Of a stretch of 64,000 bases of DNA, positions 46,806-50,360 are shown in pieces (position 1 is the first letter of the stretch; every line of letters starts with the position of its first letter). A model generated the notes under the pieces. It was given only the letters and a program-made list of their open reading frames with translations. It had not been told where the DNA came from and did not search any database. This stretch comes from Methanolinea sp. (GTDB lineage Archaea; Halobacteriota; Methanomicrobia; Methanomicrobiales; Methanospirillaceae): assembly GCA_018263335.1 (NCBI GenBank), contig JADFCY010000003.1:1-64000 (forward strand). Direction: 5' to 3'. A program made the translations under genes and the position numbers.

Positions 46806-46930
46806 TGCATGATTGGGGAACCGATCCCGCGTAGCCGCAAATCGTGCATGAAGCCGCAATCTCTCCGTTCTCACAGAAATCTACATGTATTTTAGACCCC
46901 TCACTCTTCTTGGAATGTGTGAGGTTCTGC

Positions 46931-47755
46931 ATGCATGATACGGCGCGCCGGATAATGCCCACCGGTATTCCATCACTTGACCCGGTGATAGAAGGGGGAG
47001 TCCCTCCCGGGTCTCTCATCCTCCTTCTCGGGGACATCGGAGCCGGGAACAATGAATTCGTCTACAGTTCCATCATGCTCCTTTCGAAGATGAAGCAAAA
47101 ACCCGGAGGTGATGGACTCGTGCTTCCGGCTGAAGTCGACTATATCACGTTCACAAAGGGAAGTGCCGATATCAGGGAAGAGATGCAGAGATCCTTCCAC
47201 CCGGATCTGACCCAGGCACTGGGAGACGTGAAGTTCAAGGATCTCTCCCATATCTATTTTGACTCAAGCATTATCCCCCTTGACTGGTACTCTGAAAAAG
47301 ACATCATATCACGCCTCCAGTCAAGGGGAGAGCATGACCAGATCCTCGGCAACCTTGCGTCCGAGCTGAACAGGATACCAAAGAACAGCATCGTCGTGCT
47401 CGACTCCATCACCGACCTTGCCACGCAGTTCAACAAGATAGGCAAATGGAATGATTTTTCGGCATTCCTGAGGGGTTTGCAGCGGGTAGCGAAGGAATGG
47501 GGCACGACTGTGTACCTTCTCCTCACGAAGGGCATCCTTGATACTCCCCGCGAGCTGGAAGTCGCGGACGCCGCGGATGCGGTCCTCCTCTTCAGGTGGG
47601 AAGAGACCCCTGGGGCAAGGCGGCAGCGGGTAATGTACATCGAGAAGTTCCGCGGTCTGATGCCTTATCTCGAAGATAAGGACCTCGTGAAATTTGCCGT
47701 CCGGATTACCTCCACGGAAGGGTTCGATGTGAGCAACATCAGGGTGGTCATATGA
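46931..47755 (+). CDS. KaiC/RadA-like protein with degenerate Walker A
   Basis: 274 residues from ATG 46931 (MHDTARRIMPTGIPSLDPVIEGGVPPG). The RecA-fold core is visible, but the phosphate loop reads GDIGAGNNE (34-42). Both the lysine and the following Ser/Thr are Asn, so ATP binding is doubtful. The Walker B-like IVVLDSITDLATQF (about 152-165) is kept. It overlaps the next KaiC-like gene by 4 bp. The likely role is as the inactive partner of that ATPase. ATG 46844 would give 303 residues, but the added sequence is poor. Confidence 0.8.
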   Translation: MHDTARRIMPTGIPSLDPVIEGGVPPGSLILLLGDIGAGNNEFVYSSIMLLSKMKQKPGGDGLVLPAEVDYITFTKGSADIREEMQRSFHPDLTQALGDVKFKDLSHIYFDSSIIPLDWYSEKDIISRLQSRGEHDQILGNLASELNRIPKNSIVVLDSITDLATQFNKIGKWNDFSAFLRGLQRVAKEWGTTVYLLLTKGILDTPRELEVADAADAVLLFRWEETPGARRQRVMYIEKFRGLMPYLEDKDLVKFAVRITSTEGFDVSNIRVVI

Positions 47756-48450
47756 GCGAGGAGCGGGTGAAGATCGGGATCGAAGGCCTCGATCAGATGA
47801 TGGGCGGAGGACTCATCCCTGGGAACATCTGTGCCATCATCGGCACCTATGGTACAGGAAAGACCACATTTGCCCTGGAGTTCGTCTGGGAAGGGCTCAA
47901 GAAGGGGGAGAATGTCATCTACATCAGCCTCGAGGAGCGTGAGGACCGCATACTCCGCTACATGGACGAGAAGGGATGGGATACCACGCCCTACCGGGGA
48001 AGGGCGCTTTCCGTGCTGAAACTTGATCCCTCCGATTTCAACCTGGCCATCAACAGCATCAAGAACGAGCTCCCTGCCCTTGTCAGCCAGCTGGGGGCGC
48101 AGCGGGTGGTGATCGACCCGGTCTCCCTCTTTGAGGATCTCTTTGACCGTGATTCCGACCGAAGGAGGGAGATGTTCAGGTTTGTCGACACCCTGCGGGA
48201 CCAGCACTGCACCATCGTCCTGACGAGCGAGACTGACAAGGACAATCCTTTTGCCAGCCGGCATAACCTCATCGAGTACCTCGCTGACACGGTGATCCTC
48301 CTGCGCTATGTGAGGCCTTCCGATCTGACAGACGTACACCTTGCACTCGAGGTAGTCAAGATGAGGCTCTCTGCCCATTCACGGGAGATCAAGCCGTACG
48401 AGATCCAGCAGGGCCAGGTGCTGGTATACACGGAAGCGAACGTTTTTTAG
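47752..48450 (+). CDS. KaiC-like RecA-superfamily ATPase
   Basis: 232 residues with an intact Walker A GTYGTGKTT (31-39), the KaiC start VKIGIEGLDQMMGGGLIPGN, EGLKKGENVIYISLEE, and Walker B RVVIDPVSLFEDL. It ends near YEIQQGQVLVYTEANVF. It is of ArlH/KaiC size. With the preceding pseudo-ATPase it forms a pair divergent from a secretion ATPase, a plausible regulatory module like ArlH with ArlI. It is followed at once by a hairpin and the 107-bp repeat array. Confidence 0.85.
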   Translation: MSEERVKIGIEGLDQMMGGGLIPGNICAIIGTYGTGKTTFALEFVWEGLKKGENVIYISLEEREDRILRYMDEKGWDTTPYRGRALSVLKLDPSDFNLAINSIKNELPALVSQLGAQRVVIDPVSLFEDLFDRDSDRRREMFRFVDTLRDQHCTIVLTSETDKDNPFASRHNLIEYLADTVILLRYVRPSDLTDVHLALEVVKMRLSAHSREIKPYEIQQGQVLVYTEANVF

Positions 48451-48750
48451 AGCAGCAGCGGGCGAAAGCCCGCTGCTGCAAGGGTATATTCGCGAACAGC
48501 CCCGGGACAGTCAATCGCTCAGTTGATGCGAGAGTGAGTGGGTGAAATGCAATTGCAGGTGTTAGGGGGCGAAAGCCCGCTGCTGCAAGTGTATATTCGC
48601 GAACAGCCCCGGGACAGTCAATCGCTCAGTTGATGCGAGAGTGAGTGGGTGAGACGCAATTGCAGGGGTTACGAGGCGAAAGCCCGCTGCTGCAAGGGTA
48701 TATTCGCGAACAGCCCCGGGACAGTCAATCGCTCGGTTTGTGCGAGGGAT
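48451..48750. repeat. Tandem 107-bp repeat array, with a GAAA-capped hairpin in the first copy
   Basis: Three copies of a unit begin at about 48462, 48569 and 48676, an exact 107-bp period. Each carries GCGAAAGCCCGCTGCTGCAA, then GTATATTCGCGAACAGCCCC, then GGGACAGTCAATCGCTC. The first copy has a perfect 12-bp stem with a GAAA loop (GCAGCAGCGGGC at 48452-48463 and its complement at 48468-48479). In copies two and three only the inner stem (GGC-GAAA-GCC) pairs, because the left arm is different. It directly follows the stop of the KaiC-like gene. No coding frame fits it. Confidence 0.8.
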
Positions 48751-48765
48751 GGCTGTCAGCGCTTC

Positions 48766-48777
48766 TTTTTTAAAAAA
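48766..48777. terminator. Symmetric T6-A6 terminator between convergent genes
   Basis: TTTTTTAAAAAA is a palindromic T-run/A-run that gives a U-run in both directions. It lies between the plus-strand KaiC/repeat unit and the minus-strand BofA-like gene, 31 bp beyond the BofA-like stop. Confidence 0.45.
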
Positions 48778-48807
48778 TACGCAGGGCAGAAGGGAGATTT
48801 CTCCCCC

Positions 48808-49074
48808 CTAGAAGCCCTCGATTCCGAGCAGGTGGAGCACGATCACGATGAGAGCTCCAGGGATGCCCCCAAGGATGCAGAGGAGGACGTTCACAAGCGA
48901 GTAGGGGACATCGGGCCTGCCGAGGCTTCCCATGATGTTGAACAGGTTCACGAAGAAGAGGATCAGGAGACCGAGGATGGAGTTGATGATCAGTTTTGTG
49001 ATGTCCTTGATCAGGAAGAAGAGCGCCACCGCGATGATGATTCCGGCAATCAGGACTGCGAAATCTATATTCAT
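48808..49074 (-). CDS. BofA-family membrane protein
   Basis: 88 residues with two or three helices. The pattern LFFLIKDITKLIINSILGLLILF then VNVLLCILGGIPGALIVIVLHLLG matches the BofA family. Its namesake inhibits pro-sigma-K processing in spore formers. Archaeal members have no known role. It is 2 bp from the TldE stop, so it is probably in the same transcript as tldD and tldE. Confidence 0.8.
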   Translation of the reverse strand: MNIDFAVLIAGIIIAVALFFLIKDITKLIINSILGLLILFFVNLFNIMGSLGRPDVPYSLVNVLLCILGGIPGALIVIVLHLLGIEGF

Positions 49075-49076
49075 GC

Positions 49077-50360
49077 CTAATTACCAATGAGCGCCAGGTT
49101 TTTTAATCTTATCTCAGGCAGGACCATCGATCCGACCACCCTCTCCTCTCGACTGATCCCCCCGGTCTCTTTGAGCATCTCAAATACATTCCCTGAGAGC
49201 ATCGCTTTCCTTACGGGAAATTCGACATTTCCGTCGCGCATGAAGAAGGCGTTCGAGAGTTCCACCGAGAAATCCCCTGACAACGGGTTTGCGGTGTGCG
49301 CCCCGACCACGTCGTGGACGTGCACGACCTCGTCCTCCACGACATTGCACCTCGGCCCAACGATTGAGAGGACGTGGACTCCAATCGATGGCGACCCCCC
49401 GTGACCCCCACGCACCGCGCTCCCCGTGCTCTCTCTCTCGTACCGGTACGCAGTCTTCAGGTCATAGGCGAATTCACTGAGGATACCTTCTTTTACAAAA
49501 TTGATCCGCCTTGCAGGGCTGCCCTCCCCGTCCCACCGGCAACGCGAGAGGCCTTTGGGGTGGAACGGGTCGTCAATGAGAGAGAGAGACGGGTCCATGA
49601 CCTCCTGTAAAAGCAGTCCTGCGAGCCTCGATCGCCCCGCGTGCACGTTCTTTCCGCTCAGTGCCGGGACAAAGACGCTGCCAAGGATCTGGGAGAGGGC
49701 TACGGGGGAGAGAACCACGTCGTATGAGTCAGTCTTGATATCCTCTCCTCCCTGCGACGCATATGCAAGGTATGCTGCCTTCTCCCCCACCTTCTGCGGA
49801 TCGATATCCATCCTGCAGGATGCATCGAACTCGTATCCCGTTGACTGGCCGATGATCGCCTCGATACCGATGCTCACCATGCTCTCCTGCTCGAGGTATC
49901 TGACCCCGTGACTGTTTGCGAGCACTGCATCCGACCGCGAGACCTCAGCACTCCCCGATGTGATCTCCACAGGGTAGGCCTCCGCTCCCTCGATCAGCCC
50001 CTGCAGGAGCTTGCGGGCGGTCTCGGGGTCGGGTACGACAGCCGGGTCGAAGTTCATCGGGGCAGTATCGAGTTGGCAGGGCCCCGGCAGCCCTTTCCAG
50101 TTCTGTGGCGTCGCGAGGCGGGCGCTGGAGATCGCAGCGTCAAGGCATTCTTCCCATCGCTGCGGGTTGCTGGTCGCAGAGGTTCCGATCCTCCCTTCAT
50201 GAATTACCCGAAGGGAGAGGCCCTGGGTTTTTGAACCAGACGCATAATGGATCTCTCTCCTCCGAAGCCGGGCAGTCACTGTATCCCCCGAGAAGAGGTA
50301 GACCTCGAGTTCCGGGACTCTCCTCTCCCCCTCCTTTATAATCCGGTCAATGAGATCCAC
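49077..50360 (-). CDS. TldE/PmbA-family metalloprotease subunit
   Basis: 427 residues from GTG 50360; the ATG at 50378 is possible, but GGTGGTGGGC is better placed for the GTG. Motifs: LEVYLFSGDTVTARLRRREI near the start, SVFVPALSGKNVHAGRS, DDPFHPKGLSRCRWDGEG and the VGAHTANPLSGDFSVELSNAFF end, typical of TldE. It lacks the zinc HExxxH of its partner TldD, as expected. TldDE is a two-subunit protease that acts on unfolded or modified peptides. It overlaps the tldD gene by 14 bp. Confidence 0.88.
   Translation of the reverse strand: MDLIDRIIKEGERRVPELEVYLFSGDTVTARLRRREIHYASGSKTQGLSLRVIHEGRIGTSATSNPQRWEECLDAAISSARLATPQNWKGLPGPCQLDTAPMNFDPAVVPDPETARKLLQGLIEGAEAYPVEITSGSAEVSRSDAVLANSHGVRYLEQESMVSIGIEAIIGQSTGYEFDASCRMDIDPQKVGEKAAYLAYASQGGEDIKTDSYDVVLSPVALSQILGSVFVPALSGKNVHAGRSRLAGLLLQEVMDPSLSLIDDPFHPKGLSRCRWDGEGSPARRINFVKEGILSEFAYDLKTAYRYERESTGSAVRGGHGGSPSIGVHVLSIVGPRCNVVEDEVVHVHDVVGAHTANPLSGDFSVELSNAFFMRDGNVEFPVRKAMLSGNVFEMLKETGGISREERVVGSMVLPEIRLKNLALIGN

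Follow-up and report, generated by a model that had tools for sequence, protein, structure and literature searches.

A tandem array behind a KaiC-family gene as a probable diverged member of a Methanolinea-specific family of extragenic palindromes

Described repeats and the Methanolinea hairpin family

REP and BIME elements associated with RAYT are short extragenic palindromes, dispersed as well as clustered and often found just 3' of genes (PMC3733652, PMC2817692), and a family of hairpins in Methanolinea shares these traits. Other described repeats combine purine-rich strands with a C-tract. The rPQS of Methanomicrobiaceae, which are intergenic and dispersed, form a G-quadruplex or antiparallel triplex with a C-tract, and the published oligo reads GGGGGGTGGGG-GCA-GGGGAGGGGG-CTCG-CCCCCTCCCC (PMC8044849). 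The TMECO intrastrand triplex repeats are likewise intergenic and pair a purine mirror repeat with a C-tract (PMC4666352). Hairpins can also be created and maintained by template switching, which stable loops promote (PMC8794818). Our literature search on Methanolinea and palindromes found no paper on elements of the kind described here.

The Methanolinea family has the layout GGGAGCAG-[variable stem]-CTGCGGGGG, with the outer 4 bp fixed while the letters of the stem vary, and its consensus is GGGAGCAG-[variable stem]-loop-[variable stem]-CTGCGGGGG-(TTATGC)-GGGGGTGG-TCC-GGAGGGGG-NNN-CCCCCTCC-GGTC. A covariance model, R1, built from twelve hairpins of the type found behind a KaiC-like gene, matched in nine of the 13 Methanolinea genomes, with at least 19 matches in G012, 17 in G005, 16 in G008, and eight in G000, the genome of the window (the whole 64-kb stretch of DNA analyzed); these counts are lower bounds, as 150 candidates were scored per genome. 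None of 95 genomes from other genera of the same family contained an R1 match, and an order-wide search outside the genus returned two weak single matches (30-32 bits), which we took as noise. A pattern search of the 13 genomes for GAGCAGN{10,24}CTGCGGGG agreed with R1, yielding 79 matches versus 15 for a reversed control, the latter being few in the element-rich genomes. Among extragenic palindromes, the family is a new form specific to this genus, and it carries no sign of a new machine.

These elements work like REP elements but fail RAYT-type tests. Unlike REP/BIME elements (PMC3733652, PMC2817692), they have no consistent tag (of 76 elements, four have GTAG nearby and six have CGTC), and a Y1 (RAYT) transposase was detected in none of the 13 genomes of the genus (controls were positive in 5/14), so mobilization of the RAYT/REP type was rejected. 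They also differ in having only about 6-20 copies per genome, with 6-19 in the richer carriers, and in combining fixed outer pairs with a changing stem. A hairpin of the DGR type was ruled out since the reverse transcriptase PF00078 is likewise missing from all 13 genomes (controls positive), and integron attC sites were rejected because the core pair RYYYAAC / GTTRRRY occurs in 0/76 elements.

The elements lie in same-strand clusters, spaced 40-230 bp. In 14 clusters, the first element begins 0-3 nt past a same-strand stop codon, and in about eight it overlaps the last codons of a gene, as judged from the calls of a home-made gene caller that uses codon-usage scoring. These compact genomes leave scant room for insertions other than behind stop codons.

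In many family members, the hairpin is followed by a G-rich mirror repeat and a C-tract. This second module has the layout GGGGG[T/A]GG-N2-4-GGAGGGGG-loop-CCCCCTCC, in which a purine stem is preceded by its mirror image 2-4 nt away. Of 103 purine hairpins at the loci covered, 36 have the mirror third strand (shuffles: mean 5.6, maximum 13), and the A position of the stem tracks the T/A of the mirror strand (13 own versus 1 swapped in class 1, and 6 versus 1 in class 2). The layout is that of the rPQS oligo, known from a sister family within the same order; the Methanolinea module differs in coming after a variable-stem GAGCAG..CTGCGGGGG hairpin, in being clustered on one strand, and in its frequent location at stop codons. 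Compared with TMECO repeats (PMC4666352), which the module also resembles, the strand order is reversed and the leader hairpin is genus-specific. With these observations, the range of triplex/G4 repeats grows from Methanomicrobiaceae to include Methanoregulaceae, in which they have a new leader hairpin. The window copies differ from both published types in that the G-rich mirror strand, purine stem, and C-tract are all absent from them, and at the same site in other species the module is found in G008 and, in degenerate form, in G012. The triplex motif also appears in a second context, TATCGGGGGAGG-TCC-GGAGGGGG-ATTCT-CCCCCTCC, without the GAGCAG hairpin (L108, L140, several positions), and a triplex-type hairpin is present in G003, G006, and G010, where the hairpin family is missing or nearly so.

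The array behind the KaiC-family gene

We consider the array in the window to be probably a locally amplified, diverged member of this Methanolinea-specific, REP-like family of extragenic palindromes. Its features are listed in Table 1.

Table 1. Positions of the array, its hairpins, and its neighbors in the window
Feature	Positions	Strand	Remarks
KaiC-family ATPase gene, 232 aa	47752..48450	+	Pfam PF06745 KaiC, 172 bits; TAG stop at 48448-48450
Copy 1 of 107-bp unit	48451..48557	+	A-type, with complete leading hairpin and junction-type 3' end
Leading hairpin GCAGCAGCGGGC-GAAA-GCCCGCTGCTGC	48452-48479	+	Perfect 12-bp palindrome, GAAA loop; dispersed GAGCAG..CTGC family
Copy 2 of 107-bp unit	48558..48664	+	Hybrid: left flank B-type, right flank A-type; hairpin reduced to 4 inner bp
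Copy 3 of 107-bp unit	48665..48771	+	B-type: without outer left arm, with own closing hairpin
Closing hairpin GACAGTC...GGCTGTC	48720..48757	+	In copy 3 alone; RNA fold; DNA fold z -3.2
TTTTTTAAAAAA	48766..48777	.	T-run on either strand; possible two-way transcript end of archaeal T-tract type
BofA-like small membrane protein gene	48808..49074	-	Convergent; Pfam PF07441, 40.6 bits

An earlier note on this DNA had described a three-copy tandem repeat of 107 bp with nearly identical copies. TRF bears out the repeat at 48460-48746, with a period of 107, 2.7 copies, a score of 511, and 94% matches at 0% indels, and it is by far the strongest tandem array of the window. With unit borders set by the register of the hairpin, the whole array spans 48451-48771 and holds three copies, a count derived from one MAG assembly. 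Near-identity holds for copies 1 and 2 (98/107) and not for copy 3, which matches copy 2 at 81/107 and copy 1 at 76/107, differs mainly at its ends, and diverges at the 3' end; identical stretches between copies are up to 62 nt long. The array DNA occurs once in its own genome. The unit is not unique to one assembly, with diverged versions at the same site in G002 and G009.

The note was also correct that copy 1 has a 12-bp stem with a GNRA-type tetraloop right after a stop codon and that the later copies hold the loop and right arm without the outer left arm, leaving 4 inner pairs in copy 2 and 3 in copy 3; it had missed the closing hairpin of copy 3. The leading hairpin starts 1 base past the stop codon of the KaiC-family gene. 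Within the 64 kb, no other perfect stem closed by a loop of 3-6 reaches 10 bp, so that this hairpin is also the longest of its kind, and it is stable as RNA (MFE -29.2 kcal/mol, z -7.2) and as DNA (MFE -18.8, z -6.8).

The nearest relative, G002, carries a dimer at this site, in which the first copy (A) has the full leading hairpin and the second (B) has half a hairpin and a different 3' end. By alignment score, copy 2 in the window resembles the second G002 copy in its left flank (6.0 versus -1.5) and the first in its right flank (20.5 versus 3.0), and the right flank of copy 3 resembles the second (20.0 versus -1.0). Taking both flanks together, copies 1, 2, and 3 are A/A, B/A, and B/B. This order, A-(B/A)-B, is the one expected if an ancestral A-B dimer underwent a single unequal exchange or slipped during replication, and such an event would account for the outer left arm being found only in copy 1 and the closing arm only in copy 3. 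A separate four-copy array with an 83-bp unit lies at a gene 3' end in G005 (L064 1-2701; G005:C27:192500-195200), is led by GCAGACCGCGGGCGAAAGCCCGCGGTCTGC, and has the full left arm in its first copy only. Both this array and the L022 site independently repeat the pattern in which half hairpins follow a complete one.

Hairpin elements lie directly past the KaiC stop codon in six species of the genus, namely the window genome, G002 (L058), G009 (L021), G005 (L022), G008 (L023), and G012 (L024). No element lies behind the KaiC stop in other species, which include four close relatives (L025, L027, L050, L057). The KaiC tree leaves the backbone of the genus without resolution, so a single gain and a gain plus loss are both compatible with this distribution. 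The stem letters vary by species yet pair, as in CAGCGGGC/GCCCGCTG in the window, CTGGGGC/GCCCCAG in L021, and CAGCGGAC/GTCCGCTG in L023. A second model, R2, trained without any KaiC-locus sequence, ranked the window hairpin, a GAGCAG..CTGC palindrome with a variable paired interior, first in the 64 kb (E 1.6e-5); its score was 27 bits, versus 45-66 bits for typical members. At the orthologous site, R2 identified clear family members in L023 (1.6e-10), L024 (6.2e-10), L022 (3.5e-7), and L021 (1.5e-5), and gave the hairpin of G002 an E value of only 0.79. The right flank in the window is CTGCAAGGG rather than CTGCGGGGG; because L021-L024 and L058 have CTGCGGGG(G) there, the conserved CTGCGGGGG flank was probably lost in the window lineage. 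With this flank and the triplex-type module lost, the membership of the window array rests on its GCAG..CTGC hairpin and its orthologous position.

The KaiC-family gene has relatives at 40 loci, with 57-98% identity. The genes on either side of the array converge, and the array ends at TTTTTTAAAAAA, which leaves 30 bp before the stop codon of the BofA-like gene. A bacterial-type intrinsic terminator (a GC stem followed immediately by a T-run) was rejected, as there is none in 48300-49000. Upstream, 46844-48450 holds two adjoining, overlapping KaiC-family ATPase genes, the first of which is divergent (PF06745, 45 versus 172 bits), and beside this pair lie reversed genes that, from a reading of the ORFs, resemble a type II/IV secretion ATPase and its membrane protein.

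Stem covariation and the competing explanations

Across 74 distinct rows, 95.1% of stem cells are paired (75.6% in shuffles), 157 cells carry double changes (44.9 in shuffles), two-sided changes occur in 9 of 12 pairs, and the covariation score is 0.426 (0.100 in shuffles), with the caveat that R1 supplied the structure to which A4 was fitted. Compensatory changes, which the earlier note had proposed to look for, are thus found across the family and not among the three copies of the array. Selection for RNA pairing tolerates G-U, which the opposite strand reads as A-C. Among 850 cells, 796 are Watson-Crick, 12 are G-T, and 11 are A-C, and this balance is the more telling because the covariance model itself favors G-U. 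That G-T is no commoner than A-C suggests that the palindrome is maintained as DNA and not by selection on RNA; recent origin could be an alternative cause of the low use of G-T. The matched changes in both arms and the stable GNRA tetraloops are shared with template-switch hairpins (PMC8794818), although in that work rRNA ancestors were reconstructed and here the mechanism is drawn from the balance of G-T and A-C only. The same addresses with different, still perfect stems in related genomes offer a natural test of RNA selection versus DNA template switching, and they caution that what looks like covariation of an RNA can originate at the DNA level.

In the species that carry the family, its hairpins are dispersed over anything from several places to about 19 in a genome, with constant GAGCAG/CTGCGGGGG ends, a stem that changes in matched pairs, and a start that is often at the stop codon of the preceding gene. 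In the course of events that we propose, palindromy would be kept in the DNA, most simply by hairpin-primed template switching at replication, aided by the very stable GAAA loop, and the dimer would have become the trimer as outlined above. Less firmly, the hairpin, which lies where the KaiC-like transcript has its 3' untranslated part, may shield or shape the end of the mRNA, which would favor tolerance of insertions just past stop codons. The plausibility of such a role at the KaiC mRNA 3' end comes from the hairpin's position only. A more far-reaching version of our reading, which we hold only tentatively and think doubtful, is that these palindromes are independent of any transposase and keep fixed addresses at stop codons where template switching rewrites both arms, such that position and shape would be inherited rather than sequence, and the DNA structure might serve transcription ends or ease conflict between convergent genes.

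The earlier note had offered a small RNA, a 3' regulatory element, or a mobile-type repeat as explanations. The second of these is possible, as the element lies 1 nt past the stop codon. In one competing explanation, the array would be a structured 3' UTR element selected as RNA, whose hairpin would end transcription or keep 3' exonucleases away from the KaiC mRNA and whose compensatory changes would reflect selection for pairing. The sense orientation at many loci, the fold of the full array as RNA (z -6.2), the T-run where the array ends, and the retention of the site in six species despite different stems are all consistent with such an element. We nevertheless think it unlikely, given that G-T pairs do not exceed A-C pairs overall or in the subset of elements in sense orientation after a stop codon (4 versus 6), that other loci, such as the GNAT site, hold the element in antisense to the genes on both sides, and that four close relatives have no element behind KaiC. 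A tandem small RNA gene could draw on the same stable fold, but copies 2 and 3 folded singly are weak (z -1.0 and -2.6), the flanks diverge fast among relatives, Rfam covariance models gave no match in 47000-50000 even at E<=5, and no promoter-like or terminator-like match was found at the array in a scan for sigma-70-type sites and intrinsic terminators only. Together with the strand symmetry of the compensatory changes, this makes a small RNA highly improbable.

A mobile-type repeat comes nearest among the three options, insofar as the hairpin belongs to a dispersed, genus-wide family, although the process that is visible in the window is local amplification. A MITE-like element with hairpin ends, a preference for stop codons, and a transposase that is unidentified or lost, with the array arising by repeated insertion, would fit the dispersed and genus-restricted family, the precise placement at stop codons, and the nesting of elements within elements (e.g., L118 1965/2026). 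This is more unlikely still than the 3' UTR element, since both Y1 transposase and reverse transcriptase are missing from the 13 genomes, no target-site duplication is evident by eye when the KaiC site is compared with empty relatives, and near-identical copies are local tandems, whereas distant copies within one genome differ in their stems. The window array can moreover be explained without a new insertion. Under the reading that we prefer, a diverged and locally amplified extragenic palindrome, no coding, small RNA, or active-transposon function is needed to explain the array.

Other sites of the family

Several further sites bear on how family members change in place. Behind a gene of ~480 aa ending in TCGTATTGA, an orthologous site is occupied in four species by elements at the same base (L104 2008, L118 1965, L126 1399, L139 2044), three of them with wholly different stems. 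As far as the sequences can tell, this is one of the best cases for turnover of the stem at a fixed address. At L119 1967 and L123 2006, the element overlaps the 3' end of the gene and the stop codon TGA lies inside the hairpin loop (GGGCTGAAAAGCCC), with the apparent effect of making the protein longer than its L115 orthologue. One member, found in three species (G000:C16:231-267, G009:C75:868-900, and G004:C109:5786-5818), has a conserved AACGGCGC stem, in contrast to the fast-changing stems of the other family members.
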